Made by a program: the position numbers and the translations under genes
Notes under the pieces: generated by a model
Database searches by the model: none
What the model saw: only the letters and a program-made list of their open reading frames with translations
Told to the model about the DNA's origin: nothing
In this document: one piece after another, positions 10,245 to 25,649 of the stretch
Numbering within the stretch: the first letter of the stretch is position 1
Layout of the letters: every line of letters starts with the position of its first letter
Assembly (NCBI RefSeq): GCF_036030735.1
Contig: NZ_CP107928.1
Coordinates: 3,410,001 to 3,474,000, forward strand
DNA: 64,000 bases
DNA from: Streptomyces sp. NBC_00425
Lineage (GTDB): Bacteria > Actinomycetota > Actinomycetes > Streptomycetales > Streptomycetaceae
Direction: 5' to 3'

Positions 10245-10889
10245 TCAGCCGAGGATGCCCCGCTCGTACGCTCTCGCCACCGCGGCCGCGCGGTCGTTGA
10301 CGCCCAGCTTGGCGTACAGGTGGGTGAGGTGGGTCTTGACCGTGGCCTCGCTGATGAACAGGTCGCGGGCGATCTCACGGTTGGAGGCGCCCCTGGCGAC
10401 CAGGGCCAGCACCTCGCGCTCACGCGCGGAGAGCGGCTCCTCGCCGGGGCCGCGGGGGGCGCGGACCGCGGAGACCAGCCGGGTGGCCACGGCGGGCGAC
10501 AGGACCGTACGGCCCTGCGCCGCCGCGCGGACCGCCGTGAACAGCTCGTCTCGAGGGGCGTCCTTGAGGAGGTAGCCCGTCGCGCCGGCCTCGATCGCGG
10601 GGAGCGTGTCGGAGTCGGTGTCGTACGTCGTGAGGACGAGGACCCTGGCGCGGGCGCCGCCGCGGGTCAGCTCGCGGATGGCGTCCACTCCCCCGCCGCC
10701 GGGCATCCGCAGGTCCATCAGGATCACGTCGGGATCGAGTTCGCCCGCCTTCGCGACGGCCTCGACGCCGTTCGACGCCTCGCCGAGGACCGTGAAGCCG
10801 GGGGCCGACTCGAACATGCCGCGCAGGCCGTCCCGCACCACGGGATGGTCGTCGACGATCAGCAAGGAGACGCGCGGGTCATCTGTCAT
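10245..10889 (-). CDS. LuxR-type response regulator (NarL family)
   Basis: This 214-residue protein has an N-terminal receiver domain with phospho-acceptor Asp in VILMDLRMPGG, the acidic pair in LIVDDHPV, and the conserved Lys in LLKDA. The C-terminal LuxR helix-turn-helix reads LSAREREVLALVARGASN then REIARDLFISEATVKTHL. Its start overlaps the 3' end of the sensor kinase gene by 11 bases, so the two are a cognate pair. The ABC-2 exporter genes lie upstream in the same direction, which suggests the pair controls that exporter. Confidence 0.92.
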   Translation of the reverse strand: MTDDPRVSLLIVDDHPVVRDGLRGMFESAPGFTVLGEASNGVEAVAKAGELDPDVILMDLRMPGGGGVDAIRELTRGGARARVLVLTTYDTDSDTLPAIEAGATGYLLKDAPRDELFTAVRAAAQGRTVLSPAVATRLVSAVRAPRGPGEEPLSAREREVLALVARGASNREIARDLFISEATVKTHLTHLYAKLGVNDRAAAVARAYERGILG

Positions 10890-12138
10890 GGCGGACCAAC
10901 GGTACGCGAGCCGACAGTGCGCTTCCGTGTCCCGGCTCGGACTCCACGGCGAAGGAGCCCGCGATGCGTTCGGCGCGGGCCCGCATGCCGTCGAGGCCGA
11001 ACCCCCCGGCCGCGGAGCGGGCCGGCAGGGCGAGCGGGTCGAAACCGAGGCCGTCGTCGCGGATGTCGAGGATCACCTCGTCGCCCAGGAACGACAGGGT
11101 GACGCCGAGGCGCGAGGCCCAGGCGTGGCGGGCGGCGTTCGACAGAGCCTCCTGCGCGATGCGCAGCAGGGTGGCGGCGACCTCCTCGTGGAGCTGCTCC
11201 GCGGTGCCGGTGAGCGTGAACTCCGCTCGCACACCCGTGCGTTCGCCCCATTCGGCGACCGTCGTCTTCAAGGCCTCGGGCAGCCCGGCGTCCGCCAGCG
11301 CCACCGGGGCCAGATTGTGCACGGAGCGGCGGGCCTCGCCGAGGCTGTGCCGGGCCAGGTCGAAGGCGCGCTGGAGATGGGTGCGGGCGACGTCGGGGTC
11401 GGGGGTGTTCGTCACCACCTGAAGCTGGGCGATGATCCCGGTCAGGCCCTGGGCGAGGGTGTCGTGGATCTCGGCGGCGAGGCGGCGGCGTTCGTCGGCC
11501 ACCCCCGCCTCCCTGGCCTGGACGAGGAGTTGGGCGTGCAGCGCGGCGTTCTCGTCGAGGGCCCGCTGCAGGGCGGCGTTGGTGCGTTCGAGTTCGGCGA
11601 TGGTCGCGGTGCGCTCGTGGGCGCGCCGCGTCTCCTGCTCGGTGAGGTGTGCGACGACCATCTGCAGGCCGGAGTTGGCCACCAGAAGCCCGGCGAAGAC
11701 GATCCACTGCGTCAGGCCGTCGAAGGGCATCCCGCCGGCCTGCGCACCGGCCACGGTGACCGCGCTCATGAACAGTCCGAGCCGCTGCCACCGCTCCGGG
11801 AGGGTCTCGTCGGCGTCCATGTAGCCGGCGGCGGCGTAGAACGCGAAGAACGGGTTGAGCCAGGTGAGGGCGAAGGCGAGGCCCCAGCGGGCGACGTAGT
11901 AGGCGGCGCCGCCCGGGGACGGGGTGCGCATCCGGCCGGGGCGGCGCGTGCTGTGCCGGCACAGCTGGAGCACGACCGCGGCGCCGAGCAGTGACCAGGC
12001 GGTGTACCAGGTGTCCGGTGCGACGTGCGGGTCGGCGGAGGCGATCGCGAGAACGGCGCTGATGCCGAGCAGCCCGTAGGGCCCCCAGGTGTGCAGTTGC
12101 TCCCAGCGCCGGTCGATCCGGCTGTCCGCCGTGGTCAT
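10879..12138 (-). CDS. sensor histidine kinase (HisKA_3, NarL-partner type)
   Basis: This 419-residue membrane kinase has several N-terminal hydrophobic helices (residues about 15 to 150) with very short loops, so it likely senses membrane state rather than a large external ligand. The dimerization/phosphorylation helix contains the acceptor His in RRRLAAEIHDTLAQGLTG, and the ATPase domain has NAARHAWAS, DIRDDGLGFD and GGFGLDGMRARAE. The start is the ATG at 12138; the frame is open further upstream but the residues there do not look coding. It ends 11 bases inside the regulator gene and begins 30 bases after the exporter permease gene, giving a four-gene leftward operon. Confidence 0.9.
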   Translation of the reverse strand: MTTADSRIDRRWEQLHTWGPYGLLGISAVLAIASADPHVAPDTWYTAWSLLGAAVVLQLCRHSTRRPGRMRTPSPGGAAYYVARWGLAFALTWLNPFFAFYAAAGYMDADETLPERWQRLGLFMSAVTVAGAQAGGMPFDGLTQWIVFAGLLVANSGLQMVVAHLTEQETRRAHERTATIAELERTNAALQRALDENAALHAQLLVQAREAGVADERRRLAAEIHDTLAQGLTGIIAQLQVVTNTPDPDVARTHLQRAFDLARHSLGEARRSVHNLAPVALADAGLPEALKTTVAEWGERTGVRAEFTLTGTAEQLHEEVAATLLRIAQEALSNAARHAWASRLGVTLSFLGDEVILDIRDDGLGFDPLALPARSAAGGFGLDGMRARAERIAGSFAVESEPGHGSALSARVPLVRHDR

Positions 12139-12167
12139 GCCCACAGTCTGCACGGCCGCCCGCCCGC

Positions 12168-12902
12168 CTACTCCCAACGGAACCAGCGGGCCGCGGCGCC
12201 CGTCAGCAGCAGGATCCACATCGCCAGCACGCCCAGGTGGTCCCAGCCGGGCCAGTGACCGGCCGCCGCCTGGTTCAGGGCCTGCGCGGCCGCCCCGAAG
12301 GGGGTCCAGCCCACGACGCGGGCGAGGACGTCCGGCATGTTCTGCACCGGCACCCACACCCCGGCGCAGAACATCGACGGGAAGAACACGGCCGAGCCGA
12401 TCGCGCCGGCGATCTTCGTCGTGGGGGACAGGGCGGACACCACCGATCCGAGGGCGAGGGCGACCAGGACCGCCAGCAGCAGGGCGACGGCGTATCCGAG
12501 GGGCTGCTCGGGCAGGCGCACGTCGAAGCCGAGCCGTCCGACCGCCAGGACCAGCAGCGCCGACGCCAGGGAGGCCCCGCCGTAGACCAGCATCTGCGCG
12601 GACAGCAGGACGGCCGGGCGGACCGGTGTCACGGACATCCGGCGCAGGATGCCGCGCTCCCGGTATCCGGTGAGGGTCTGCGGCATCGACTGCAGGCCGC
12701 CGACGATCAGACCGAGCAACACGGCCACCGGGACGTAGACGTCGACGGTGCGCAGACCGCCGAGGTCGTCGCTCGGATGCCGGAAGGACGGGACGGACCC
12801 GAGGATCACCAGCAGCAGGGCCGGGAAGAGCAGGATCCAGAAGAGGGCGCCCGGTTCGCGGCGGAAGAGGCGGACCTCGGTGCGCAGTACGGCGGTGCTC
12901 AT
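12168..12902 (-). CDS. ABC-2 type transporter permease
   Basis: This 244-residue protein has about six hydrophobic segments and the ABC-2 permease layout of DrrB-type drug exporters: a cytoplasmic N-terminus, a segment GIL with arginines (RERGILRRMSVTPVRP) and a long run of C-terminal helices. Its start overlaps the stop of the ATPase gene as ATGA. Together with that ATPase it should export a drug, lipid or peptide. The two-component genes follow on the same strand. Confidence 0.87.
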   Translation of the reverse strand: MSTAVLRTEVRLFRREPGALFWILLFPALLLVILGSVPSFRHPSDDLGGLRTVDVYVPVAVLLGLIVGGLQSMPQTLTGYRERGILRRMSVTPVRPAVLLSAQMLVYGGASLASALLVLAVGRLGFDVRLPEQPLGYAVALLLAVLVALALGSVVSALSPTTKIAGAIGSAVFFPSMFCAGVWVPVQNMPDVLARVVGWTPFGAAAQALNQAAAGHWPGWDHLGVLAMWILLLTGAAARWFRWE

Positions 12903-13876
12903 GCCACGGCCTCCTTCGTGCCGCCGCTCGTGTCGTCGTGCGGGGCGTCGTGAGCGGTGTCGTGCGGGGCGCCGTGCGGGGCGTTCTTCGTCAGGTCGAG
13001 GAAGGCGTCGTCGAGGGTGGCGTCCAGGACGCGCAGCTGGTGGGCGGTGACGCGCCGGCGGGCGAGGAGGGTGATGACGGCGTTGACGGTCTCGTCGGTG
13101 CCGGACAGCGTGAGGCGGCCGTCCCGGTGCCGGACGGAGGCGAGCTCGGGCAGGGCGTTCAGGTCACGGTCGTCCAGCGGGGCGGACGGGGTGAAGCTGA
13201 TGACGGTGGCCCCCGCCGAGCGCCGGACGAGGTTCGCCGGGGTGTCCAGGGCGGCCACCCGGCCCCCGTCGATCACCGCGATCCGGTCGCACAGCCGCTG
13301 GGCCTCCTCCATGAAGTGGGTGACCAGCAGCACGGTGACGCCGTTCGCGCGCACGTCCTCGACGATCTGCCAGGTGTCCCGGCGGGCCCGCGGGTCGAGG
13401 CCGGTGGTCAGCTCGTCCAGGACGACGATCCTCGGGTCGCCGATCAGCGCGAGTGCGATGAACAGGCGCTGCTTCTGGCCGCCGGACAGTTTCGCGAACC
13501 GGGTGGTCAGCTTCGGGGCCAGGCCGAGGCGCTCCGCGAGCGGCCCCCAGTCGAGCGGCCGCGGATGGAAGGAGGCGTACAGCTCCAGGGCCTCGCGGAC
13601 GGTCAGCTTCGGCTGCAGCTCGCTCTGCTGGAGCTGGGCGCCGAGGATGCGGGCGACCTTCTCGTGGTCGGCGACGGGATCGAGGCCGGCCACCCGGACC
13701 CGGCCCCCGTCGGGCACCCGCAGGCCCTCGACGCACTCCACGGTGGTGGTCTTGCCGGCGCCGTTCGGACCGAGGACGCCGAAGATCTCCCCCTCCTCCA
13801 CGGCGAAGGAGACGCCGTCGACGACCGCACGGCCGTCATAGGTCTTGCGCAGGTCGGTGACTTCGATGACAGGCAT
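12899..13876 (-). CDS. ABC transporter ATP-binding protein (DrrA-like)
   Basis: This 325-residue ATPase has Walker A GPNGAGKTTT at about residues 36 to 45, signature LSGGQKQRL, and Walker B RIVVLDELTTGLD, followed by the His switch in LLVTHFMEEAQRLCD. A C-terminal extension of about 90 residues is typical of the DrrA/CcmA branch that partners ABC-2 permeases. The last 25 residues are unusually rich in Asp and His (repeats of the type HGAPHDTAHDAPHDD), which may be a flexible metal-binding tail. The ATG at 13876 is the first codon giving normal family sequence. It is the first gene of the exporter and two-component operon. Confidence 0.9.
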   Translation of the reverse strand: MPVIEVTDLRKTYDGRAVVDGVSFAVEEGEIFGVLGPNGAGKTTTVECVEGLRVPDGGRVRVAGLDPVADHEKVARILGAQLQQSELQPKLTVREALELYASFHPRPLDWGPLAERLGLAPKLTTRFAKLSGGQKQRLFIALALIGDPRIVVLDELTTGLDPRARRDTWQIVEDVRANGVTVLLVTHFMEEAQRLCDRIAVIDGGRVAALDTPANLVRRSAGATVISFTPSAPLDDRDLNALPELASVRHRDGRLTLSGTDETVNAVITLLARRRVTAHQLRVLDATLDDAFLDLTKNAPHGAPHDTAHDAPHDDTSGGTKEAVA

Positions 13877-14058
13877 GGCACCAGCGTCCCGGGCGGGGCC
13901 CGGCCGGCACATCGGCCGACTCGCTCGGACGGACATCGGCCGATCGGTCGACCCGGCCGTACGACTCCTCGAACACGCAGGTCGTAGGACCAGCGACGGA
14001 GCCCGGACGGACCGAAACTCGGTGGGCTCTGTCAGTGCCGGTCCGTAGGCTCGCGGTG

Positions 14059-15864
14059 ATGGCCGAGACACGTGCAACCACCCCCGACCGTTCCGCCGTA
14101 CGCTCCCTGCTGCGCCTGTGGCCGTACGTCAGACCCGTGCGGCTGCGGCTGTTCACGGCCGCCTTCGTCGCCGTGCTCGCCTCCTGTGCCGGGCTGGTGA
14201 TCCCCCTCGTCCTCAAGTGGATGGTGGACGGCCCGGTGGCCGACCGGGACACGGCCGGGGTCTGGCTGGGCTCGCTCTGCCTGCTGCTCCTCGGGTTCAC
14301 CGAGGCGCTGCTGTTCGGGATGCGGCGCTGGCTGGTGGCGCGTCCGCTGTCGCACGTCGAGGCGCAGATGCGGGCGGAGTTGTACGGGCGGCTCCAGCGG
14401 CTGCCGGTGGCGTTCCACGACCGGTGGGCGTCGGGCCAGCTGTTGTCCCGGGCGACGGCCGATCTGGGGATGGTGCGGATGTTCCTCGCCTTCCCCCTGA
14501 CGTTCCTGCTGGTCAACTCGGTCACGATCGTGTTCGGCGTCGTCATCATGCTGCTCCAGGACTGGCAGCTCGGGCTGGTCATCCTCGGACCGGCCATACC
14601 CGTCGTCGTGATGTGCGTGTACTTCGAGCACCGGTACGCCGTCGTGGCGCGCCGGGCACAGGACCAGGTCGGGGATCTGACGACCGTCGTCGAGGAGAGC
14701 GTCCTCGGGATCCGGATCGTGAAGGGCTTCGGCCGGCACCGCAGCCAGGCGCGCGCCTTCCGCGAACTGTCGTCGACCCTGCGCGGCACCGAACTGGCCA
14801 AGGCCCGGCTGCTGGCCACCATCTGGGCCGTCATCGTGACGCTGCCCGAGCTGGCGATCGGGGCCGCGCTGGTGCTGGGGGCGGTGCAGGTGGCGGACGG
14901 CGAACTGTCCGCGGGCACCCTGGTCGCCTTCCTGTCCACCGCGCTCGCGCTGCGCTGGCCGGTGGACTCCATCGGGTTCCTGCTGGCGATGAGCCAGGAG
15001 GCGGCGACGGCCACACAGCGGTACTTCGAGGTGATGGACGAGGAGCCGGAGCGGGACACCGTCGTCCGGGCGGAACCCGGTCGCGCGGGCGCGGAGTCGG
15101 ACGCGACGGCCGACGGCGGACTCCGCTTCGACGGCGTGACGTTCCGCTACCCGGACGCCGCCCCCGGCTCCCGGCCCACCCTCGACGGTGTCGACCTGCA
15201 CATCCGGCCCGGCGAGTCCATGGCCCTGGTCGGGTCGACCGGCAGCGGCAAGACCACCCTCACCGCCCTCGTCCCCCGGCTGCACGAGGTGACGGCGGGG
15301 CGCATCACCCTGGACGGCGAGGACGTCACCGCGATGCCCCGCGAGGAGCTGCGCGCGCGGGTCGCCGTGGCCTTCGAGGAACCGACCCTGTTCTCCGCGA
15401 GCGTCGGCGAGAACGTGCTCATGGGCGCGGACGACCGGGCGGGCGCCGTCGAGCTGGCACGGGCGCTGGACGTGGCGCAGGCCGGGTTCGTGCACACGCT
15501 GCCGCAGGGCGTCGACACCCAGGTCGGCGAGCAGGGGCTCAGCCTCTCCGGCGGACAGCGGCAGCGGCTCGCACTGGCCAGGGCCGTCGTCGGCCGGCCC
15601 CGCTTCCTCGTCCTGGACGACCCGCTCTCCGCGCTGGACGTGCACACCGAGGCGGCCGTGGAGGCCGCGCTGCGGCAGGTCCTCGCCGACACCACCGCGC
15701 TGATCGTCGCCCACCGCCCGTCCACCGTGCTCCTCGCCGACCGGGTGGCGCTGCTGTCCGACGGCCGGATCGCCGCGGTGGGCACCCACCAGGAACTGCT
15801 GCGCGACAACCCCGAGTACGCCCACCTCATGTCAGGAACCGGCCGCCAGGAGGACGACCGATGA
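14059..15864 (+). CDS. ABC exporter half-transporter, pair 1 subunit A (non-catalytic ATP site)
   Basis: This 601-residue protein joins a six-helix exporter domain to a C-terminal ATPase domain. Walker A is GSTGSGKTT with Lys398, the signature is a perfect LSGGQ at 496 to 500, but Walker B ends Asp520-Asp521 (FLVLDDPLSALD), so the catalytic Glu is an Asp. The H-loop His is present in IVAHRPST. The next gene has the complementary pattern, so the two should form a heterodimer with one weak and one working ATP site. A TAGGCT -10-like box at 14046-14051 lies 7 bases before the ATG, so the transcript may be leaderless. The substrate is unknown. Confidence 0.9.
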   Translation: MAETRATTPDRSAVRSLLRLWPYVRPVRLRLFTAAFVAVLASCAGLVIPLVLKWMVDGPVADRDTAGVWLGSLCLLLLGFTEALLFGMRRWLVARPLSHVEAQMRAELYGRLQRLPVAFHDRWASGQLLSRATADLGMVRMFLAFPLTFLLVNSVTIVFGVVIMLLQDWQLGLVILGPAIPVVVMCVYFEHRYAVVARRAQDQVGDLTTVVEESVLGIRIVKGFGRHRSQARAFRELSSTLRGTELAKARLLATIWAVIVTLPELAIGAALVLGAVQVADGELSAGTLVAFLSTALALRWPVDSIGFLLAMSQEAATATQRYFEVMDEEPERDTVVRAEPGRAGAESDATADGGLRFDGVTFRYPDAAPGSRPTLDGVDLHIRPGESMALVGSTGSGKTTLTALVPRLHEVTAGRITLDGEDVTAMPREELRARVAVAFEEPTLFSASVGENVLMGADDRAGAVELARALDVAQAGFVHTLPQGVDTQVGEQGLSLSGGQRQRLALARAVVGRPRFLVLDDPLSALDVHTEAAVEAALRQVLADTTALIVAHRPSTVLLADRVALLSDGRIAAVGTHQELLRDNPEYAHLMSGTGRQEDDR

Positions 15865-17723
15865 GCGCCCCCACGACGTCGTCCCCCACGACCGACGACG
15901 ACACACCGCGGGACTCGGGCCCGCGGGCCGCGCAGGACCCCTTCGACAAGGACGTCCTGCCCACCGTGCCCGGCGCCACCGGCGCGCTGCTGCGTTCCCT
16001 GCTGGCCCCGATGCGGGCGCGCGTCGCCCTCACCACGCTTCTGCTGCTGCTCCAGCAGGCGGCCGTGCAGGCGGGTCCGCTGCTGGTGGCGTACGCCATC
16101 GACCGCGCCGTGCCGGCGCTGCGGGCCGACGACCACGGGCCGCTGGTCGCGGTGGGCGCCGGCTACCTGCTGTGCGCGGTGGCGTCCGGCGGCCTGCAGT
16201 ACGCGTTCCTGCTCGCCTCCGCCCGCGTCAACCAGGACGTGCTGCTCGACCTGCGCGGCCGGATCTTCCGGCACGCGCAGGCGCTGAGCCTCGACTTCCA
16301 CGAGCGCTACACGTCGGGCCGTCTGATCTCCCGCTCCACGAGCGACGTGGAGGCCCTGCGCGAGCTCCTCAACGAGGGGCTGCAGGAACTCGTGACGGTC
16401 GTGCTGTCCTTCCTGTTCATCTCCGCGATGCTGCTCTGGCTGGACCTCGGCCTGGGCGCCGTCGCGGTCGCGTCGTTCGTGCCGCTGTACGGCCTCGTCC
16501 GGGTCTACCAGCGGCGCGCGGGCCGGGTGTTCACGGCCCGCTCGACCGCGATCGCGGCCGTGATCGTGAAGTTCGTGGAGACGATGAACGGCATCCGGCC
16601 GGTGCGCGCCTTCCGGCGTGAGGCCGTCAACGAGGCCGGTTTCCGGGTCCTCAACCGGCGGCACGAACGCAGGAACGGCGACGCGCTGCTGGAGATGGCG
16701 CGGTACGTCGTCGGATCGCGGCTGGTCGCCAACACGGCGGTCGCTGCGATCGTGCTGTGGGGCGCCATGCGGGTCGCGGACGGTTCGCTGGAGCTCGGTG
16801 TGCTGGCGGCGGCGGTGCTGTACCTGCGGCGGCTGTACGACCCGATCGACCGGCTCGGCATGTTCCTCAACTCCTACCAGTCGGCGGCCGCGTCCCTGGA
16901 GAAGATCGCGGGGCTGCTCGCGCAGAAGCCGTCCGTGCCGGAGCCGTCGGCGCCGCGGGAGCTGCCCGCCCTGCGCGGCGAACTCCCCGGCAGGGAGGTC
17001 GTCTTCGACGGGGTCTCCTTCGGCTACCGCACGGGCGGCGAGGTCCTGCCCCGCTTCGACCTGGCCCTTCCCGCCGGGCAGACGGTCGCCGTGGTCGGCT
17101 CGACCGGCGCCGGCAAGTCCACGCTGGCCAAGCTGCTCGCCCGCTTCTACGACCCCTCCGAGGGCCGGGTGCTGCTGGACGGGGTGGACCTGCGCGAGCT
17201 GGCCGTGCCCGAACTGCGGCGCGGTGTGGTGATGGTGACGCAGGAGGCGTTCCTGTTCTCCGGCACGGTCGCCGAGAACATCGCCATCGGGCGGCCGGAC
17301 GCGTCGCGGGAGGAGATCGAGCGGGCGGCGAAGGCGATCGGCGCGCACGAGTTCATCAGCGCCCTGCCCGACGGGTACGACACCGACGTGCGCAAGCGCG
17401 GCGGCCGGATCTCCGCGGGCCAGCGCCAACTCGTCGCGTTCGCAAGGGCGTTGCTCGCCGACCCCGCGGTGCTGATCCTCGACGAGGCGACGAGTTCGCT
17501 GGACGTCCCGGGTGAGCGGGCCGTGCAGGCGGCGATGGCGACGGTGCTGAAGGGCCGTACGGCGGTGGTGATCGCGCACCGGCTGTCCACCGTGGAGATC
17601 GCCGACCGGGTGCTCGTCATGGAGCACGGCCGGATCGTCGAGGACGGCGGACCGGCCGAACTCATCGCGGGCACCGGCCGGTTCGCGGACCTGCACCGGG
17701 CCTGGCGGGACAGCCTGGCGTGA
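15861..17723 (+). CDS. ABC exporter half-transporter, pair 1 subunit B (catalytic ATP site)
   Basis: This 620-residue partner has an N-terminal cytoplasmic tail of about 45 polar residues, six membrane helices and an ATPase domain. Walker A is GSTGAGKST with Lys419, Walker B ends Asp541-Glu542 (LILDEATSSLD) and the His switch is in VIAHRLST. The signature is altered to ISAGQ at 517 to 521. Paired with the upstream subunit, its Walker motifs would face a perfect LSGGQ, forming the hydrolytic site. It overlaps the upstream gene as ATGA. The pattern matches heterodimeric exporters of the TM287/288 type. Confidence 0.9.
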   Translation: MSAPTTSSPTTDDDTPRDSGPRAAQDPFDKDVLPTVPGATGALLRSLLAPMRARVALTTLLLLLQQAAVQAGPLLVAYAIDRAVPALRADDHGPLVAVGAGYLLCAVASGGLQYAFLLASARVNQDVLLDLRGRIFRHAQALSLDFHERYTSGRLISRSTSDVEALRELLNEGLQELVTVVLSFLFISAMLLWLDLGLGAVAVASFVPLYGLVRVYQRRAGRVFTARSTAIAAVIVKFVETMNGIRPVRAFRREAVNEAGFRVLNRRHERRNGDALLEMARYVVGSRLVANTAVAAIVLWGAMRVADGSLELGVLAAAVLYLRRLYDPIDRLGMFLNSYQSAAASLEKIAGLLAQKPSVPEPSAPRELPALRGELPGREVVFDGVSFGYRTGGEVLPRFDLALPAGQTVAVVGSTGAGKSTLAKLLARFYDPSEGRVLLDGVDLRELAVPELRRGVVMVTQEAFLFSGTVAENIAIGRPDASREEIERAAKAIGAHEFISALPDGYDTDVRKRGGRISAGQRQLVAFARALLADPAVLILDEATSSLDVPGERAVQAAMATVLKGRTAVVIAHRLSTVEIADRVLVMEHGRIVEDGGPAELIAGTGRFADLHRAWRDSLA

Positions 17724-17781
17724 GCGGTCGGCGGGCGGCGGGGGCCGGTCAGAGGGCGGCGAGGGCCGGAAGGACGAGTGG

Positions 17782-19497
17782 ATGATCGACGCGTACGAGG
17801 ATCCCGGCACGCCCGACAGCCGCGGCGGCTGGGCGTATCTGGCCTGGCTGGTGCGCTGCCAGCCGTGGCGGTCGGCGGCCGGAGCGCTGCTGGCCAGCCT
17901 CTGGATGGTGCTGGCGGCGATCGCGCCGTACCTGCTGTCACGGGCGGTGGACGACGGGCTGGAACCCGGTGACACGGCCGCACTCGCGGGCTGGACGGCC
18001 GCGCTGCTCGCGGTGGGCGCGCTCAACGCGTGGGTGAGCATCATGCGGCACCGCACGATGACCCGGGTGCGCATGGACGCCTACTTCCGCACCACCAAGG
18101 TCGTCGTCGGGCACGCGGCCCGGCTGGGCGCCGCGCTGCCGCGCCGGGTGGGGGCCGGGGAGGTCGTCACCATCGGGGTGGGCGACGTGCACACCATCGC
18201 GGGTTCGCTGACGGTGGTCGGGCCCGGCGTGGGCTCGATCGTGGTGTACGTCTTCGTCGCCGGGCTCCTGCTGTCCGTGTCGCCGACGCTGGCGGCGGTC
18301 GTGCTGCTGGGGATGCCGGTGATCGCGGTGCTGGTCGGGCCGCTGATGGCGCGGCTGCAGGGCACGGAGGCGGAGTACCGGGAGCACCAGGGGGTGCTGA
18401 CCGCGCGGATCGGCGACCTCGCGGGCGGGCTCAGGGTGCTCAACGGGCTGGGCGGCAAAGGGCTGTTCGCGGACTCCTTCGCCCGGGACTCGCAGCGGCT
18501 GCGGGCGCAGGGCTACCGGGTCGGCGCGGTCACCAGCTGGATGCAGGCACTCGGGGTGGGCCTGCCCACCCTGTTCCTCGCCGTCGTGACCTGGCTCGCG
18601 GCCCGGCTGGCCGCCCAGGGCGAGCTGACCGTGGGCGAGCTGGTGTCGGTGTACGGCTATGTCGCCGTCCTGGTCGGCCCGGTGGCGTTCCTCGTCGACA
18701 TGGGCTACCAGCTGAGCCGGGGCGTGGTGGCCGCCCGGCGCGTCGTACGGCTGCTGCGCACGGAGCCCGAGCCGGACACCGGGACCGGCGACGCACCCGC
18801 CGAGCCGTCGGTGCTGCACGACCCCGACTCGGGTGTGCGGGTGGTCCCGGGCCGGCTGACCGCGCTGGCCGGGGGACGCCACTCGGACGTGACGGCCGTC
18901 GTGGACCGGCTCGGCCGGTACGGCCCCTCGGACGTCACCTGGGGCGGACGGCGGCTGGACGACCTGCCGTTGGAGCAGGTCAGGGCCCGCATCCTGGTCG
19001 CCGACCACGAGGCCGACCTGTTCGCCGGAACCCTGCGCGAGGCGGTCGGCGGACGGGGTGCGCCCTCGGCGGCGGAGGTCGCGCGGGCGGTGCGGGCGGC
19101 CGCGGCCGACGACATCGTGCAGGGTCTGCCCGAGGGGCTCGACTCGCCCGTGACCGCGCAGGGCCGCAGCCTCTCCGGCGGTCAGCGGCAGCGGGTACGG
19201 CTGGTGCGGGCCCTGCTCGCCGACCCCGAGGTGCTGCTGGCCGTGGAGCCGACGTCGGCGCTGGACGCGCACACGGAGGCGTCGGTCGCGGAGCGGCTGC
19301 ACGCGTACCGTGCGGGCCGGACCACGCTCGTCACCAGCACCTCGCCGCTGGTCCTCGACCGCGCGGAGACGGTCCACTACCTGGTCGACGGGAAGGTCGC
19401 CGCGACCGGCCGCCACCGCGACCTGCTGCAACGGGAGCCGGGCTACCGCGCACTGGTGACCCGCGACGCCGACGACGCGGAGGAGGCCGTCCGATGA
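17782..19497 (+). CDS. ABC exporter half-transporter, pair 2 subunit A (degenerate ATPase)
   Basis: This 571-residue exporter subunit has a normal six-helix domain but a strongly degenerate ATPase domain. Where Walker A should stand, residues 363 to 371 read AGGRHSDVT, with no Lys-Ser/Thr. Walker B reads VLLAVEPTSALD (Val488 replaces Asp, Glu489 kept) and the switch His is missing (VTSTSPL). The signature LSGGQ at 464 to 468 is perfect. It probably cannot hydrolyse ATP itself but supplies the signature to its partner encoded just downstream. It starts 58 bases after pair 1, preceded by GGAAGGA, so all four genes may be one transcript. Confidence 0.87.
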   Translation: MIDAYEDPGTPDSRGGWAYLAWLVRCQPWRSAAGALLASLWMVLAAIAPYLLSRAVDDGLEPGDTAALAGWTAALLAVGALNAWVSIMRHRTMTRVRMDAYFRTTKVVVGHAARLGAALPRRVGAGEVVTIGVGDVHTIAGSLTVVGPGVGSIVVYVFVAGLLLSVSPTLAAVVLLGMPVIAVLVGPLMARLQGTEAEYREHQGVLTARIGDLAGGLRVLNGLGGKGLFADSFARDSQRLRAQGYRVGAVTSWMQALGVGLPTLFLAVVTWLAARLAAQGELTVGELVSVYGYVAVLVGPVAFLVDMGYQLSRGVVAARRVVRLLRTEPEPDTGTGDAPAEPSVLHDPDSGVRVVPGRLTALAGGRHSDVTAVVDRLGRYGPSDVTWGGRRLDDLPLEQVRARILVADHEADLFAGTLREAVGGRGAPSAAEVARAVRAAAADDIVQGLPEGLDSPVTAQGRSLSGGQRQRVRLVRALLADPEVLLAVEPTSALDAHTEASVAERLHAYRAGRTTLVTSTSPLVLDRAETVHYLVDGKVAATGRHRDLLQREPGYRALVTRDADDAEEAVR

Positions 19498-19531
19498 CGA
19501 CCGTGACCGGGAACGAGAGGGCGGCAGCCCG

Positions 19532-21322
19532 ATGACGACGACCACGGCAGTCGACGACGGCGCCCCCGCGGGCCGGCTGCCCGTCGCCGGCCGCGCCGAC
19601 GTGCGGCGTGCGGCGCTGCGGCTGGTACGGGCAGACCGGCGGGCGTTCGCCGGCGCGCTCGCCCTGAACGTGCTCGCCGCCGGGGCCGGCCTGGCCGGAC
19701 CATGGCTGCTGGGGCGGATCATCGACGAGGTGCGGGCCGGGCGCGGCGTCGCGCCCGTCGACCGGCTGGCGGCGGCGATCCTGGTGTGCGCGGCGGCGCA
19801 GCTGCTGCTGGCGCGCTGGGCGCGGTACGCGGGGCACCGGTTCGGCGAGCGCACGCTGGCTCGGGTCCGGGAGGAGTTCGTCGGGCGGGCGCTCGCGCTG
19901 CCGGCGTCGGTCGTGGAGCGGGCCGGCGCCGGCGATCTGACCACCCGCGGCACCGCCGACGTGGCGGCCGTGGGCACGACCCTGCGGGACGCCGGGCCCG
20001 AGCTGCTGGTGTGCACGGTCCAGGCGCTGTTCACGCTCGGCGCGGTGTTCGTGATCGACCCGCTGCTGGGCGTCGTCGGGGTGCTGGCGCTGACGCCGAT
20101 CTGGTTCGCGCTGCGCTGGTATCTGCGGCGGGCACGGGCCGGCTATCTGGCGCAGGGCGCGGCGGACTCCGAGGTCGCCGAGATCGTCGCGGCGACGGCG
20201 TCCGGGGCGCGGACGGTGGAGGCGTTCCGGCTCGAGCGGCGGCGCACGGCGGCGAACCGTGACGCGCTGGAGATCTCCCGGCGCGCCCGCTTCCACACGC
20301 TCTACCTGCGCACGGTGTTCTTCCCGGTGGTCGAGACGTCGTACTCGCTGCCGGTGGCGGGGGTGCTGCTGCTGGGTGGCGCGCTGCACGCGCGCGGGGC
20401 GATGAGTCTGGGCGCGGTGGTGGCGGCCACGCTGTATCTGCGGCAGTTCACCGAGCCGCTCGACCAGATCCTGGTGCGCGTCGAGCAACTGCAGAGCAGC
20501 GGGGCCTCGTTCGCCCGGGTGGAGGGCCTGGCCGGGGCGCCGCGGTCGGAGCACGAGGGCGGGACGGCGCCGGTCCCGGTGGACGACCGGATCGACGTGA
20601 CGGGGGTGCGGTACGCCTACGAGCGCGGCGGCGAGGTGCTGCGCGGGGTCGACCTGACGGTGCGGCCCGGGGAGCGGCTGGCGGTCGTGGGTCCGTCGGG
20701 CGCGGGCAAGACCACGCTCAGCAGGCTGCTGGCGGGCGTGGACGCGCCGAGCGCGGGCTCGGTGACGGTGGGCGGGGCGCCGGTCGCCGAGCTGGCGCCC
20801 GAGACGTTGCGTCGGCAGGTCGTGCTGGTCACGCAGGAGCATCACGTCTTCATCGGCACGGTCCGCGACAACCTGCTGATCGCCGAACCCACGGCGGCCG
20901 ACGCGCGGTTGTGGGCGGCGCTGGCCACGGTCGGGGCCGCCGACTGGGTGCGGGAACTGCCGGGCGGTCTGGACGCCGAGCTGGGCCGGGGCGGGGGCGG
21001 TGGCCGCACGACGGACGGCTCGCAGGCACAGCAGCTCGCCCTGGCCCGGGTGGTGCTGGCGGACCCGCACACGCTGATCCTGGACGAGGCGACCGCGCTG
21101 CTGGACCCGACGACGGCCCGGCACACCGAGCGGGCTCTGGCGGCGGTGCTCCGCGGGCGGACGGTCATCGCCATCGCCCACCGGCTGCACACCGCCCACG
21201 ACGCGGACCGGGTCGCCGTGATGGTGGACGGTCGTCTCACCGAACTCGGCACGCACGAGGCGCTGGTGGCGGACGGCGGCGCGTACGCGGCGCTGTGGCG
21301 GACCTGGCACGGAGGGCCGTGA
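19532..21322 (+). CDS. ABC exporter half-transporter, pair 2 subunit B (catalytic ATPase)
   Basis: This 596-residue subunit has six membrane helices and a complete nucleotide site: Walker A GPSGAGKTT with Lys393, Walker B Asp518-Glu519 in LILDEATALLD, and His550 in IAIAHRLHT. Its signature is lost: the region reads TDGSQ at 494 to 498, after a glycine run (GRGGGGG). That is the mirror image of the upstream subunit, so an obligate heterodimer is expected. A ribosome site GAGGGCGG lies before the ATG at 19532. The substrate cannot be told; nearby genes do not point to an antibiotic cluster. Confidence 0.88.
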   Translation: MTTTTAVDDGAPAGRLPVAGRADVRRAALRLVRADRRAFAGALALNVLAAGAGLAGPWLLGRIIDEVRAGRGVAPVDRLAAAILVCAAAQLLLARWARYAGHRFGERTLARVREEFVGRALALPASVVERAGAGDLTTRGTADVAAVGTTLRDAGPELLVCTVQALFTLGAVFVIDPLLGVVGVLALTPIWFALRWYLRRARAGYLAQGAADSEVAEIVAATASGARTVEAFRLERRRTAANRDALEISRRARFHTLYLRTVFFPVVETSYSLPVAGVLLLGGALHARGAMSLGAVVAATLYLRQFTEPLDQILVRVEQLQSSGASFARVEGLAGAPRSEHEGGTAPVPVDDRIDVTGVRYAYERGGEVLRGVDLTVRPGERLAVVGPSGAGKTTLSRLLAGVDAPSAGSVTVGGAPVAELAPETLRRQVVLVTQEHHVFIGTVRDNLLIAEPTAADARLWAALATVGAADWVRELPGGLDAELGRGGGGGRTTDGSQAQQLALARVVLADPHTLILDEATALLDPTTARHTERALAAVLRGRTVIAIAHRLHTAHDADRVAVMVDGRLTELGTHEALVADGGAYAALWRTWHGGP

Positions 21323-21615: not shown

Positions 21616-23667
21616 GTGTTGAGCAGCAGTCCCTCTCGCAGACGCACCCCCCACAGCCCCTCCCGTCGTGCCGCGGCCGTCGCCCTCGTCGGCGTCTCCG
21701 CGCTCATAGCCGCCGCCGTGCAGTCCGGCGCCGCGAACGCCGCCCCGGAGAAGGCACCGCAGGCGGCGGGCAAGGCCGACCCGGCCCACACGGCCCTCGC
21801 GCTCTCCCCGTCCCAGCGCACCGAGCTGATCCGCGCCGCGGAGGCCTCCCGGGCGCAGACCGCAGCGGCCCTCGGCCTCGGCTCGCAGGAGAAGCTGGCC
21901 GTCAAGGACGTCGTCAAGGACGCCGACGGCACCCTGCACACCCGCTACGAGCGCACCTACGCGGGCCTCCCGGTCCTCGGCGGCGACCTGATCGTCGACA
22001 CCGCCGCGTCCGGCGCCGCCAAGGGCGTCATCAAGGCGACGAACGCCACCATCAAGGTCCCCGGGCTCAGTCCGAGCGTCACCGCGGCGGCCGCCGAGCA
22101 GCAGGCGGTCAAGCGCGCCAAGGCCCTCGGCAGCACCAGCTCCACGGCCGACTCCGCGCCCCGCAAGGTGATCTGGGCGGCGAGCGGCAAGCCCGCCCTG
22201 GCGTACGAGACCGTCGTCGGCGGCTTCCAGGACGACGGCACGCCGAACCAGCTGCACGTCATCACGGACGCGGCCACCGGCGCGAAGCTCTTCGAGTACC
22301 AGGGTGTCAGCACGGGCGTCGGCAACACCCAGTACAGCGGCCAGGTCACGCTCGGCACGACCCAGTCGGGTTCGAACTTCACGCTGAACGACGGCGCGCG
22401 CGGCAACCACAAGACGTACAACCTCAACCGCGGTTCGTCCGGCACCGGCACGCTGTTCTCGCAGACCAGCGACACCTGGGGCAACGGCACCACGTCGAAC
22501 GCCGCCACCGCGGGCGCCGACGCGCACTACGGCGCCGCGGCCACCTGGGACTTCTACAAGACGTCCTTCGGCCGCAGCGGCATCAAGAACGACGGCGTGG
22601 GCGCGTACTCGCGGGTGCACTACGGCAACGCGTACGTGAACGCGTTCTGGGACGACAACTGCTTCTGCATGACGTACGGCGACGGCTCCGGCAACGCCAA
22701 TCCGCTGACCTCCCTCGACGTCGCCGGGCACGAGATGAGCCACGGCGTCACCTCCGTCACCGCCAAGCTGAACTACAGCAACGAGGCCGGCGGCCTCAAC
22801 GAGGGGACCTCGGACATCTTCGGCACGGGGGTGGAGTTCTTCGCGGCCAACTCCTCCGACGTGGGCGACTACCTCATCGGCGAGAAGATCAACATCAACG
22901 GCAACGGCACCCCGCTGCGCTACATGGACAAGCCCAGCAAGGACGGCGCGTCCCGGGACAACTGGTCGTCCAGCGTGGGCGGCCTCGACCCGCACTACTC
23001 GTCCGGCCCCGCCAACCACTTCTTCTACCTGCTGAGCGAGGGCAGCGGCGCCAAGGTCATCAACGGCGTCAGCTACAACTCGCCCACCGCGGACGGGCTT
23101 CCGGTCACCGGCATAGGCCGCGACAAGGCACTGCAGATCTGGTACCGCGCACTGACGACGAAGTTCACCTCCAACACGACCTACGCGGGCGCCCGCACCG
23201 GCACCCTCGCGGCGACGGGTGAGCTGTACGGCACCACCTCCGCCGAGTACAAGGCGGTGCAGGACGCGTGGGCGGGCATCGCGGTGGGCGCGCGTTCGGG
23301 CGGCGGCGGGGGTGGCGGCACCTCCTTCGAGAACACGGCCGACGTATCGATTCCGGACAACGGAGCGGCGGTCAACTCGTCGATCACCGTCTCCGGCCGC
23401 ACCGGCAACGCGCCGTCGAACCTCGCGGTGGCGGTCGACATCGTGCACACCTACATCGGCGACCTCCGGGTGCAGCTGATCGCCCCCGACGGCACCGCCT
23501 ACACGCTGAAGGCGTACGGCACCGGCGGCAGCACGGACAACCTCAACACCACGTACACGGTCGACGCCTCGTCCGAGGTAGCCAACGGTGTCTGGCAGTT
23601 GAGGGTCCAGGACAACGCGGCCCAGGACACCGGCTACATCAACAGCTGGAAGCTCACCTTCCCGTAG
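21616..23667 (+). CDS. secreted M4 (thermolysin-family) metalloprotease with P-domain
   Basis: This 683-residue extracellular zinc protease has a signal peptide ending near ANA-AP, an FTP/PepSY-type propeptide (residues about 50 to 215), an M4 catalytic domain and a C-terminal P-domain. Zinc ligands are in GHEMSHGVTS (HEMSH) and the Glu of GGLNEGTSDIFG; the second catalytic His is in DPHYSSGPANHFFYLL. The P-domain begins after a Gly linker and contains IPDNGAAVNSSITV and DLRVQLIAPDGT, as in proprotein convertases and many secreted streptomycete proteases. The GTG start at 21616 has AAGGAG 5 bases upstream. A paralogue without the P-domain follows. Confidence 0.93.
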   Translation: MLSSSPSRRRTPHSPSRRAAAVALVGVSALIAAAVQSGAANAAPEKAPQAAGKADPAHTALALSPSQRTELIRAAEASRAQTAAALGLGSQEKLAVKDVVKDADGTLHTRYERTYAGLPVLGGDLIVDTAASGAAKGVIKATNATIKVPGLSPSVTAAAAEQQAVKRAKALGSTSSTADSAPRKVIWAASGKPALAYETVVGGFQDDGTPNQLHVITDAATGAKLFEYQGVSTGVGNTQYSGQVTLGTTQSGSNFTLNDGARGNHKTYNLNRGSSGTGTLFSQTSDTWGNGTTSNAATAGADAHYGAAATWDFYKTSFGRSGIKNDGVGAYSRVHYGNAYVNAFWDDNCFCMTYGDGSGNANPLTSLDVAGHEMSHGVTSVTAKLNYSNEAGGLNEGTSDIFGTGVEFFAANSSDVGDYLIGEKININGNGTPLRYMDKPSKDGASRDNWSSSVGGLDPHYSSGPANHFFYLLSEGSGAKVINGVSYNSPTADGLPVTGIGRDKALQIWYRALTTKFTSNTTYAGARTGTLAATGELYGTTSAEYKAVQDAWAGIAVGARSGGGGGGGTSFENTADVSIPDNGAAVNSSITVSGRTGNAPSNLAVAVDIVHTYIGDLRVQLIAPDGTAYTLKAYGTGGSTDNLNTTYTVDASSEVANGVWQLRVQDNAAQDTGYINSWKLTFP

Positions 23668-23984
23668 GCCGCGGGGCCCGCACGGGCCACGCGAAGCAGC
23701 CTGACAGGCACCGCACAGGGCGCCGCCCCGGAGGCACCACCTCCCCGGGGCGGCGTCCCCTTTTTGCCCTCCCCTTACCCACGTCCTGTTGGCGCTTTAC
23801 CACAGCCCAACTCGGTTTACGTGCCTGCAATGTTCACCGGACAGTCGATTTTCGGCCAACATCACTTCGGGGTCCTGACATGTACGCGCCCGGATGTCAG
23901 TCTTCGTTCACCCGCCGCACAACTTCACACCCGTCACGGGCGGCCGCCCCACGCCGCCCGGACCCCCCACATGAAGGAGCTTGT
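23668..23984. other. gene-free region between the two M4 proteases
   Basis: It holds a terminator hairpin at 23721-23755 and the promoter region of the second protease. Between 23768 and 23900 the composition is lower in GC. The AAGGAG ribosome site at 23974-23979 precedes the GTG start of the next gene. Confidence 0.55.
23721..23766 (+). terminator. hairpin terminator with T-tract after the first M4 protease
   Basis: CGCCGCCCCGG and CCGGGGCGGCG form a perfect 11-bp stem with a 13-base loop, followed by TCCCCTTTTT. This is a classical intrinsic terminator for the rightward protease gene. Confidence 0.85.
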
Positions 23985-25649
23985 GTGACCTCCCTCTACG
24001 CGCGTCACAAGCGCACCACTCTGGCCATCGCCACCGCTGTCGCGGCCGGAGCCCTGGTCACCACCGGCCTGACCACCGGTAGCGCCGCCGCCCAGACCTC
24101 GGCGGACTCCGGCGCACGGGCAGCCCTGCAGGGCGCCCCGGTCCAGCTGTCCTCCGCAGCCCGCACCACGCTGATCCAGCAGCAGCAGTCCGACGCGTCC
24201 GCGACCGCCAAGTCCATAGGCCTCGGCGCCCAGGAGAAGCTGGTCGTCAAGGACGTCGTCAAGGACGTCGACGGCACCGTCCACACCCGCTACGAGCGCA
24301 CCTACGCGGGCCTGCCGGTCCTCGGCGGCGACCTGGTCGTGCACGAGTCCGCGAGCGGCACCGCCAAGGGCGTCACCAAGGCCAACGCGGCGACCATCAA
24401 GGTGGCCACGCTGACCCCCAAGGTCGCCGTCGCCAAGGCCGAGACGCAGGCCCTGACCGCCGCCAAGGCAGCGGGCTCCGAGTCCACCTCGGCCGACCAG
24501 GCCCCCCGCAAGGTGATCTGGGCCGCGGGCGGCACCCCGGTCCTCGCCTTCGAGACGGTCGTCGGCGGGCTGCAGGACGACGGCACCCCGAGCGAGCTGC
24601 ACGTCATCACCGACGCGGCCACCGGCAAGAAGCTCTACGAGTACCAGGGCATCGAGACCGGCACCGGCAAGAGCCTCTACTCGGGCACCGTCACGCTCGG
24701 CACGACCAAGTCGGGCACGACGTACAACCTGACGGACGGCACCCGCGGCGGCCACAAGACGTACAACAAGTCACACGGCACGTCCTCGTCGGCGGGCACC
24801 CTGTTCACCGACGCGGACGACACGTGGGGCACCGGCGCGGCCTCCAGCTCCACCACGGACCAGACCGCCGCCGTGGACGCCGCCTACGGCGCTCAGGTCA
24901 CCTGGGACTTCTACAAGTCCACGTTCGGCCGCAGCGGCATCAAGAACAACGGCGTCGCCGCCTACTCCCGCGTCCACTACGGCAACGCGTACGTCAACGC
25001 GTTCTGGGACGACAGCTGCTTCTGCATGACCTACGGCGACGGCGACGGCAACACCCACCCGCTGACCTCGCTGGACGTGGCCGGCCACGAGATGAGCCAC
25101 GGCGTCACCTCGAACACGGCCGGACTGAACTACTCCGGCGAGTCCGGCGGCCTCAACGAGGCCACCTCGGACATCTTCGGCACCGGCGTCGAGTTCTACG
25201 CCAACAACGCCAATGACAAGGGCGACTACCTCATCGGCGAGAAGATCGACATCAACGGCGACGGCACCCCGCTGCGCTACATGGACAAGCCCAGCAAGGA
25301 CGGCGGCTCGGCGGACTCCTGGTCCTCCTCCGTCGGCAGCAAGGACGTCCACTACTCGTCCGGCGTCGCGAACCACTTCTTCTACCTCCTGAGCGAGGGC
25401 AGTGGTTCGAAGACGATCAACGGCGTGTCCTACAACTCGCCGACGTCCAACGGCTCCACGGTCACCGGCATCGGCCGCGACAAGGCGCTGCAGATCTGGT
25501 ACAAGGCGCTGACGACGTACTTCACGTCGACGACGAACTACAAGGCGGCCCGCACCGGCACCCTGTCGGCGGCCTCCGCCCTGTACGGCTCGACCAGCAC
25601 CGAGTACAAGGCGGTCGCGGCTGCCTGGTCGGCCGTCAACGTCAGCTGA
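23985..25649 (+). CDS. secreted M4 (thermolysin-family) metalloprotease
   Basis: This 554-residue zinc protease is a close paralogue of the one at 21616. It has a Tat-like or Sec signal peptide ending near SAAAQT, an inhibitory propeptide with the same KVIWAAGGTPVLAFETVV core, and the catalytic motifs GHEMSHGVTS, GGLNEATSDIFG and KDVHYSSGVANHFFYLL. It stops at the end of the M4 domain and lacks the P-domain. The GTG at 23985 has AAGGAG 5 bases upstream; the open frame upstream of it is not coding. Both copies should be made as inactive precursors and matured outside the cell. Confidence 0.93.
   Translation: MTSLYARHKRTTLAIATAVAAGALVTTGLTTGSAAAQTSADSGARAALQGAPVQLSSAARTTLIQQQQSDASATAKSIGLGAQEKLVVKDVVKDVDGTVHTRYERTYAGLPVLGGDLVVHESASGTAKGVTKANAATIKVATLTPKVAVAKAETQALTAAKAAGSESTSADQAPRKVIWAAGGTPVLAFETVVGGLQDDGTPSELHVITDAATGKKLYEYQGIETGTGKSLYSGTVTLGTTKSGTTYNLTDGTRGGHKTYNKSHGTSSSAGTLFTDADDTWGTGAASSSTTDQTAAVDAAYGAQVTWDFYKSTFGRSGIKNNGVAAYSRVHYGNAYVNAFWDDSCFCMTYGDGDGNTHPLTSLDVAGHEMSHGVTSNTAGLNYSGESGGLNEATSDIFGTGVEFYANNANDKGDYLIGEKIDINGDGTPLRYMDKPSKDGGSADSWSSSVGSKDVHYSSGVANHFFYLLSEGSGSKTINGVSYNSPTSNGSTVTGIGRDKALQIWYKALTTYFTSTTNYKAARTGTLSAASALYGSTSTEYKAVAAAWSAVNVS

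Follow-up and report, generated by a model that had tools for sequence, protein, structure and literature searches.

A conserved actinobacterial pair of ABC half-exporters in which one subunit has lost Walker A and may serve its partner as a signature donor

Four genes for ABC half-exporters, here called ABC1 to ABC4, lie head to tail on the chromosome of Streptomyces sp. NBC_00425, and in one of them nearly every element that normally holds ATP has disappeared. Does an exporter built with such a subunit still use two nucleotides, or does it run on one? The role of the degenerate site, and the need for the ATP bound there, is described as an open question in the field (PMC12038006). We analysed the locus within a 64,000-nucleotide stretch of the chromosome (the window), in which DrrA/B-type, two-component and M4 genes flank it. 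All four products (571-620 aa) have a PF00664 transmembrane domain (TMD) followed by a PF00005 nucleotide-binding domain (NBD), both above the curated Pfam cut-off, which defines them as type I ABC half-exporters. The genes form two pairs in the same orientation, the first gene being the signature donor and the second the catalytic subunit. The mirror image of the original prediction thus holds inside each pair and does not extend across the two pairs. The predicted coordinates and motif states are correct, and the Pfam start positions agree with them independently.

The features of pair 1 are as follows (motif reading unless another basis is given).
14059..15864, + strand: ABC1, the signature-donor half-exporter of pair 1 (ORF, motifs, Pfam PF00664 and PF00005)
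15232-15255, + strand: ABC1 Walker A GSTGSGKT, kept
15544-15558, + strand: ABC1 signature LSGGQ
15604-15624, + strand: ABC1 degenerate Walker B FLVLDDP (LDD), Asp521 replacing the catalytic Glu
15706-15717, + strand: ABC1 switch His, kept
15861..17723, + strand: ABC2, catalytic subunit of pair 1 (ORF, motifs, Pfam), sharing 4 bases with ABC1
17097-17120, + strand: ABC2 Walker A GSTGAGKS
17409-17423, + strand: ABC2 degenerate signature ISAGQ
17469-17489, + strand: ABC2 Walker B VLILDEA (LDE)
17571-17582, + strand: ABC2 switch His, kept

This is the arrangement of TM287/288, TmrAB, BmrCD, MsRv1273c/72c and OmrDE, tandem half-exporters in which the donor combines a good signature with a weak Walker B and the partner shows the reverse. 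We assigned a pair to the TM287/288 kind when the donor has LSGGQ and a non-Glu Walker B, the partner has Glu and a changed signature, and both have Walker A. This pattern was found in 53 of 54 ABC1-type sequences (the remaining one is cut) and in 58/58 of the ABC2 type. ABC1 also has Glu instead of Gln in the Q-loop, as do 53/53 uncut orthologues (1 cut). We read ABC1 and ABC2 as a separate, ordinary degenerate-site exporter like TM287/288, whose weak site probably still binds ATP.

In pair 2 the signature and the catalytic motifs are divided between the subunits in the same complementary way, and the division goes much further.
17782..19497, + strand: ABC3, signature donor of pair 2, the usual elements for nucleotide binding missing (motifs, relatives, model)
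18868..18897, + strand: ABC3, AGGRHSDVTA in the former place of Walker A (motif reading; Lys absent in 481/481 uncut ABC3-type sequences)
19171..19185, + strand: ABC3 signature LSGGQ, intact, expected to serve the ABC4 site (SGG kept in 235/237 clusters, the other 2 cut)
19231..19251, + strand: ABC3 Walker B VLLAVEP, Asp changed to Val, next Glu (E489) kept (motif reading)
19333..19347, + strand: ABC3 switch TSTSP, His lost, S521-P522 conserved instead (motifs, conservation)
19532..21322, + strand: ABC4, catalytic subunit of pair 2 (ORF, motifs)
20690-20713, + strand: ABC4 Walker A GPSGAGKT (motif reading)
21011..21025, + strand: ABC4 lost signature TDGSQ (intact SGG in 0/106 ABC4-type clusters, 3 cut)
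21071-21091, + strand: ABC4 Walker B TLILDEA (LDE) (motif reading)
21173-21184, + strand: ABC4 switch His, kept (motif reading)

Pair 2 departs from the TM287/288 kind at Walker A, since GxxxxGK[ST] occurs after residue 300 in 0/483 ABC3-type sequences (2 cut). The A-loop Tyr and the Q-loop Gln are missing from ABC3 as well, losses that the original prediction did not list, while its D-loop is intact alongside the perfect signature. ABC4 retains A-loop Tyr, Q-loop Gln, Walker A, Walker B Asp and switch His and has no signature. Motif loss and dead site coincide nearly, not wholly: the catalytic carboxylate of ABC3 and the D-loop Asp of ABC4 remain. The ABC3 NBD scores 38.2 bits against a PF00005 cut-off of 25, and its ABC_tran match begins at profile position 41 of 137, compared to positions 1, 4 and 1 for ABC1, ABC2 and ABC4. 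The structure model of ABC3 retains the NBD fold, with strand 359-364 leading almost directly into helix 367-377, and its best Foldseek matches include TM287/288 and MsRv1273c/72c.

Most loci, and the three database searches, were picked by similarity to ABC3, so the sample favours finding the same motif state; within it each of the 481 uncut sequences of the ABC3 type (2 more are cut) lacks the Walker A Lys and the switch His and keeps SGG. Among 106 clusters of the ABC4 type, 105 have the Lys, 105 the Gln, 103 the His, 102 the Asp-Glu and 0 an intact signature (3 are cut). The split is also present in families outside the class. Orthologues thus keep it, and the counts give no sign of restored motifs in single subunits, the outcome by which the original prediction proposed to be judged. 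Its claim that each pair can form one complete and one incomplete composite site is likewise supported by the complementary split and its retention in relatives. With conservation counts of this kind in both pairs, chance does not account for the motif pattern.

We next compared how strongly individual columns are conserved, using a percentile measure that favours rare residues. The ABC3-type Walker A columns drift (percentiles 69, 52, 25 and 3), as do the ABC4-type signature columns (27, 39 and 28), whereas most Walker A and signature columns of the opposite subunit lie at 77-100. The signature and D-loop are among the more conserved ABC3-type columns. At the Q-loop the ABC3 type has a fixed column, chiefly Asn or His (percentile 93); the carboxylate of Walker B reaches percentile 91, with E or D at the catalytic position in 120/120 uncut ABC3-type locus sequences, and Ser-Pro is fixed at the switch. 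Since new residues have become fixed at these positions, the ABC3 half-site may have a structural role. The earlier proposal of a structural or regulatory element therefore gains from the Q-loop, carboxylate and Ser-Pro, while the drift of Walker A and of the partner signature speaks against nucleotide sensing.

A sister subfamily (14 loci) has lost the donor Walker A Lys in 14/14 and changed the partner D-loop Asp to Gly in 14/14; although its Walker A residues are gone, the Pfam match to its NBD still begins at the profile start. In the main family the D-loop Asp of the ABC4 type, which should serve the dead site, is kept in 47/47, and in the clade of locus L164 Walker B is still whole. Ordinary pair 1, the sister subfamily, the L164 clade and ABC3, where nearly all is gone, can be read as stages in the dismantling of a site, in an order that we infer.

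In TMD-only trees of 45 and 69 rows (16 of 64 and 27 of 64 donor rows, respectively), a single branch sets off the Walker-A-less donors and another the partners, with support of 100/100 each in the smaller tree and 100 and 99 in the larger. One change suffices for the pair 2 split on both trees; several independent Walker A losses are not needed. ABC1 groups with donors and ABC2 with partners at weak support in the 69-row tree (83 and 87). The free 45-row tree splits the donor side that includes ABC1, and holding it together costs 0.97 log-likelihood (p-AU 0.468). That the asymmetries of both pairs go back to one old event is neither shown nor rejected by these sequences.

ABC4 lies directly downstream of ABC3 in 78/78 loci with enough flank, and ABC3-type and ABC4-type distances correlate (r = 0.904 over 46 loci, leaving out L107, L286 and L288, whose partner is cut or missing), a high value partly expected from shared descent. 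An M4 peptidase gene flanks 69/72 Streptomyces loci. The two pairs stand in tandem on the same strand in 58/70 loci and on opposite strands in 3 more. The tandem is less notable than originally claimed, because asymmetric pairs are common in the host genome (also at L159, L164, L166 and L171). SCO5451 is listed as an ABC transporter in the WblC regulon (PMC7157823; PMC6637917). By synteny it is a putative orthologue, and a link of the locus to that regulon is conceivable.

The best reading of these sequences is an old actinobacterial exporter family that would have one ATP site per dimer, with ABC3 as signature donor. We infer the pairing, the empty second site, the single-ATP cycle and the direction of export, and hold it probable that ABC3 assembles with ABC4 into an obligate heterodimer, a type I ABC exporter possessing one ATP site. 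The live site would consist of Walker A, A-loop, Q-loop, Walker B and switch His from ABC4 and of signature and D-loop from ABC3. The opposite site, with neither P-loop nor signature, should hold no nucleotide. A single ATP would close the dimer of NBDs along one edge until ABC4, by hydrolysing that ATP, opens it again. The parts for which ABC3 would be retained are the membrane half, the dimer surface of the NBD, the signature and the D-loop.

Conceivably, nucleotide binding at the dead site persists in an unusual form, for example with adenine alone or with ADP as glue; pair 2 would then be a degenerate-site exporter with two nucleotides, extreme but of the ordinary sort. Two degenerate exporters of known structure do keep ATP there, MsRv1273c/72c (PMC12038006) and Pdr5 (PMC8421411), and the kept carboxylate and the refixed Q-loop column of ABC3 would fit such a role. 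We nevertheless regard it as unlikely, since P-loop, A-loop Tyr, Q-loop Gln and partner signature are all missing, the Walker A columns are unconserved and the sister subfamily has lost the partner D-loop Asp as well. Alternatively the complex could be an ATP-gated or regulatory membrane assembly, a sensor or channel that pumps nothing. SUR and CFTR are non-pump examples among ABC proteins, and the extreme asymmetry of pair 2 and its constant M4 neighbour in Streptomyces would suit this idea; it seems rather improbable given that the live site is complete, including catalytic Glu and His, so that ATP turnover is expected, and that both subunits have exporter TMDs and the ABC3 fold matches exporters.

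Mixing of subunits across pairs, for instance ABC3 with ABC2, would let four genes yield more than two pumps. The frequent tandem would allow it and ABC2 could in principle use the ABC3 signature, but we give it little credence: of 100 loci with an ABC3-type gene, 99 have an ABC4-type gene in the stretch examined and only 54 and 58 an ABC1-type and ABC2-type gene, and ABC3 co-diverges with ABC4. Decay of ABC3 is hardly credible, and for the family it is already refuted by conservation. The ABC3 NBD does evolve faster than that of ABC4 (dN/dS 0.28-0.34 vs 0.11-0.15), relative L111 is interrupted and locus L183 is broken. Both ratios, however, indicate purifying selection (leaving out ABC1 of L002, L003, L031, L032, L004 and L124 and ABC2 of L031 and L124, where a paralogue was matched and the gene is missing at the locus), ABC3 is open in nearly all relatives, many families show the same pattern, including ones outside the class, and signature and D-loop stay conserved. 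Some orthologues are matched no further than residue about 430 or 345; for those fetched, truncation is rejected because the ORFs run through, except in L111.

How does the proposed single-site ABC3/ABC4 exporter compare with known systems? TM287/288, TmrAB and BmrCD keep Walker A at the degenerate site. ABC3 has none, unlike MsRv1273c, whose Walker A binds ATP at that site (PMC12038006), and unlike both subunits of the actinobacterial degenerate-site heterodimer OmrDE, where Walker A is described as conserved (PMC11109279). Pdr5, a yeast PDR exporter that has one live site, as proposed for pair 2, is one of the largest deviations: Cys replaces the Walker A Lys, Asn the Glu and Tyr the His, and the partner signature is LNVEQ (PMC7756269). 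Its deviant site holds ATP, and the account of it names only single residues as changed (PMC8421411). It is the most degenerate published case we found, and by analogy the dead site of pair 2 could bind nucleotide weakly. Pdr5 is, however, full-length with the NBD before the TMD (PMC7756269), an architecture that none of ABC1-ABC4 shares; pair 2 consists of bacterial TMD-NBD half-exporters, and ABC3 has no recognisable Walker A loop. ABCG5/G8, termed a type II exporter, also has a changed Walker A Lys at its degenerate site, but conservatively, to Arg (PMC7756269).

Within the host genome, L166 and L171 are asymmetric tandem pairs like pair 2, beside class III lanthipeptide genes (a LANC-like plus kinase gene and a short precursor-like ORF). 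The L171 donor has Thr for the Walker A Lys and Arg for the His; the Walker A loop itself is present in both pairs and absent in ABC3. Their subunits stand apart from ABC3-type donors in the 69-row tree, and L166_1 lies beside the donors on a very long, unsure branch (80/97) in the 45-row tree. These two are the ram-like loci of the genome, and we presume their exporters to be of the RamA/RamB type. A paralogue of 40% identity was rejected as the SapB exporter RamAB; its neighbours, named by eye from translations, are helicase-like, symporter-like and MarR-like. Neither a lanthipeptide precursor nor a LANC/kinase gene accompanies pair 1 or pair 2 within the window.

Taken together, the motifs point to ABC3/ABC4 as a probable variant of the heterodimeric degenerate-site exporter with the Walker A loop gone, next to an ordinary pair 1. 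The open-licence papers searched yielded no exporter with the whole Walker A loop missing. We hold it somewhat more likely than not that, across actinobacteria, exporters of this family work with one ATP bound to each NBD dimer and leave the second site empty at all times. The pair 2 family, its dead site dismantled, lends itself to a direct test, since transport on one nucleotide would show the second to be dispensable. If the family does run on one ATP, asymmetric ABC exporters do not in general depend on ATP as glue at the degenerate site, and evolution can turn an NBD into a pure signature donor.

The window carries four consecutive ABC half-exporter genes, identified from ORFs and motifs:

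14059-21322, + strand: ABC1-ABC4, four ABC half-exporter genes head to tail

Each encodes a PF00664 transmembrane domain and a PF00005 nucleotide-binding domain (NBD) according to Pfam, and none of the best 25 NCBIfam families listed per protein reached its curated cut-off. ABC1 and ABC2 overlap by 4 bases, and gaps of 58 and 34 bases separate ABC2 from ABC3 and ABC3 from ABC4. Re-reading the motifs confirmed the states given in the original prediction: in pair 1 (ABC1/ABC2) and pair 2 (ABC3/ABC4) alike, the first subunit is the donor of a good signature and the second is the catalytic partner. ABC4 elements together with the signature and D-loop of ABC3 make a complete composite site, and the other site has neither a recognisable P-loop nor a signature; these motif states agree with the predicted combination of one complete and one incomplete ATP site in pair 2. 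A substitution absent from the original prediction, Q-loop Gln to Glu, occurs in ABC1 (residues 440-442) and in 53/53 uncut orthologues. Adjoining ABC1 are a DrrA/DrrB-type ABC pair in divergent orientation and the genes of a NarL-type two-component system (window 10245-14077, - strand), and after ABC4 come two genes for M4 (thermolysin-like) peptidases (window 21616-25649).

The occurrence of two degenerate pairs in tandem had been considered notable, a view that the rest of the genome does not sustain. PF00664 matches this genome (9.8 Mb in one contig) 26 times, with 25 matches above the cut-off. Our survey covered 13 fetched stretches and took a single NBD from each ORF, so that L161, L165 and L167, long ORFs that are probably fusions, enter it without their first NBDs. 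Among the NBDs read, asymmetric pairs are common (loci L159, L164, L166 and L171), so two adjacent degenerate pairs are unremarkable in themselves and ABC3 is the remarkable one. Walker A is wholly absent only in ABC3 and the L164 donor, among these NBDs plus the window's four. The L171 donor has Thr for the Walker A Lys and Arg for the switch His, and the motif pattern of the L159 pair resembles that reported for MsRv1273c/72c. L164 holds a second pair of the ABC3/ABC4 type, recognised by motifs:

L164:3881-7530 (own genome 8437717-8440508), - strand: second ABC3/ABC4-type pair

Its donor lacks Walker A and the switch His with the Walker B Asp-Glu intact, its partner has the signature LTPAQ, and by these motifs the pair looks like an earlier stage of the same loss. 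Matches to ABC3 at about 40 % identity were listed in many Streptomyces genomes in the genus search. Another locus, L169:2576-3598 (own genome near 9021519), encodes an ABC3-like membrane domain for which no NBD could be read and may be a broken remnant. Two asymmetric exporter pairs lie in lanthipeptide-like loci: L166:1-5972 is a class III-kind cluster whose gene has a LANC-like match and a kinase match below its cut-off, with a 38-aa precursor-like ORF at 1779-1895, and L171:2366-6352 has a 41-aa precursor-like ORF.

ABC3 matches were found in 174/199 genus genomes (E 1e-60 or better), 146/293 order genomes (1e-100), 152/197 class genomes (1e-28) and 20/396 phylum genomes (1e-55), thresholds that admit several paralogous clades and, for the class, ordinary exporters too; among the matches listed, the best class match was 1e-74 or better in 73/197 genomes. 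We fetched 100 loci from the genus and order searches, then 20, then 40. The first 100 hold relatives of ABC1 in 54, of ABC2 in 58, of ABC3 in 100 and of ABC4 in 99. Adding 22 further rows, the 120 top-ranked proteins from each of three database searches (360 in all) and the window's own copy gave 483 ABC3-type sequences; 21 further rows joined the 99 ABC4-type sequences.

Orthologues retain the same split, as the original prediction had proposed to check: the Walker A Lys and switch His are absent and the signature SGG present in all 481 uncut ABC3-type sequences, versus 0/106 ABC4-type clusters with an intact SGG (3 cut). GxxxxGK[ST] was not found after residue 300 in any of the 483, two of which are cut (L111 and a piece of L183). 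Clustering at 90 % leaves 237 clusters, of which 2 are cut and 235 lack Lys and His with the signature intact; the Walker B Asp is lost in 204/237. At 70 %, Lys is lost in 43 of 44 clusters, the remaining one being cut. Lys, A-loop Tyr and Gln are each retained in 105 of the 106 ABC4-type clusters, His in 103 and Asp-Glu in 102 (with an ambiguous base in one more); the single exception for Lys is a fragment of the broken locus L183. At L111 the ABC3 copy is interrupted in one genome, and ABC4 was not found in the stretch examined.

The genes are also linked. A scan of named genomes gave the best 80 of 174 loci, all labelled Streptomyces except L202 (Actinobacteria bacterium). Wherever 1.5 kb of flank is available, ABC4 is immediately downstream of ABC3 (78/78). 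Among loci with 4.5 kb of flank, the ABC1 and ABC2 genes are found upstream in the same orientation in 58/70 and on the opposite strand in 3/70, and the flank includes an M4 peptidase gene in 69/72 having 5.5 kb downstream. ABC3 and ABC4 distances correlate at 0.904 (46 loci). A plasmid search at 1e-40 matched 9/72,556 records, all actinobacterial by name.

Because the first ABC3-type set was found by likeness to ABC3, we examined the next-nearest relatives from the class search. In the upper tier the donor is in the ABC3-type state in 20/20 fetched loci, with two partners incomplete (L286, missing at a contig end; L288, cut). The 20 lower-tier loci comprise five that belong to the upper tier after all (L298, L303, L304, L307, L316), one ordinary pair whose two subunits both have Walker A (L315) and 14 members of a sister subfamily (L301, L305, L308, L311, L314 and nine others). 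Sister donors have lost the Walker A Lys and switch His and kept the signature (14/14), with His (12/14) or Gln (2/14) at the Walker B Asp position. Their partners keep Lys, Gln, Asp-Glu and His in 14/14, have an intact signature in 0/14 and carry Gly for the D-loop Asp in 14/14; main-family partners retain this Asp in 47/47. According to PMC12038006, the D-loop of a subunit lies in the ATP site carried by its partner. Since each D-loop serves the opposite site, the Asp loss in sister partners is the same logic carried further.

Conservation, expressed as percentiles among NBD columns, follows the split. In ABC3-type sequences the signature Ser (96), Gly (88 and 88) and Gln (98) and the D-loop Asp (95) rank high, and the Walker A columns rank lower, at 69 and 52 for the Gly positions, 25 for Lys and 3 for Ser/Thr. 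The ABC4-type Walker A Lys (100) and switch His (96) are accompanied by signature columns at 27 (Ser), 39 and 28 (Gly). The degenerate ABC3-type half is conserved at the Q-loop column (93; Asn 24/50), the Walker B carboxylate (91; Glu 39/50) and a Ser-Pro in the switch His region (S521 50/50, P522 49/50 rows); sister donors have His at the Q-loop column in 14/14. These fixed columns argue against simple free drift and suggest that parts of the dead half-site have become fixed for different residues, which may have a structural role. Mean NBD distance is greater for the ABC3 type (0.52) than for the ABC4 type (0.38), with similar membrane-domain distances (0.60, 0.59), and dN/dS is 0.28-0.34 for the ABC3 NBD (ten comparisons, seven genomes) and 0.11-0.15 for that of ABC4 (five comparisons). 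By these ratios the ABC3 NBD is under constraint, though less than a catalytic NBD.

To avoid circularity, trees were built from the membrane domain alone, with subsets of the 64 donor rows (27 in a 69-row quick tree, 16 in a 45-row careful tree with bootstraps). In both trees the Walker-A-less subunits lie together to one side of a single branch, and a second branch likewise has their partners together, with support of 100 and 99 in the 69-row tree and 100/100 each in the 45-row tree. The donor/partner split is most simply read as old and inherited. In the 45-row tree the long-branched L166_1, from an exporter we take to be Ram-like, stands beside the donors in a placement flagged unsure by the program, and holding the donor side together, as a possible shared descent of the pair 1 asymmetry would need, gave a p-AU of 0.468.

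Literature searches limited to open-licence papers found no exporter with the entire Walker A loop missing. Pdr5 is named among the largest deviations in a review of degenerate sites (PMC7756269), and ATP is retained in its deviant site (PMC8421411). Both sites of MsRv1273c/72c are described as binding ATP (PMC12038006), and the actinobacterial OmrDE is described as keeping Walker A in both subunits (PMC11109279), whereas ABC3 has none. Overall, the observation behind the original prediction stands, as the motif states hold, and its interpretation is partly supported. We propose that ABC3 pairs with ABC4 and that the second site would be empty. In the most likely cycle, the NBD dimer would close around one ATP, which ABC4 would hydrolyse before the dimer reopens, and the pair would probably act as an exporter.
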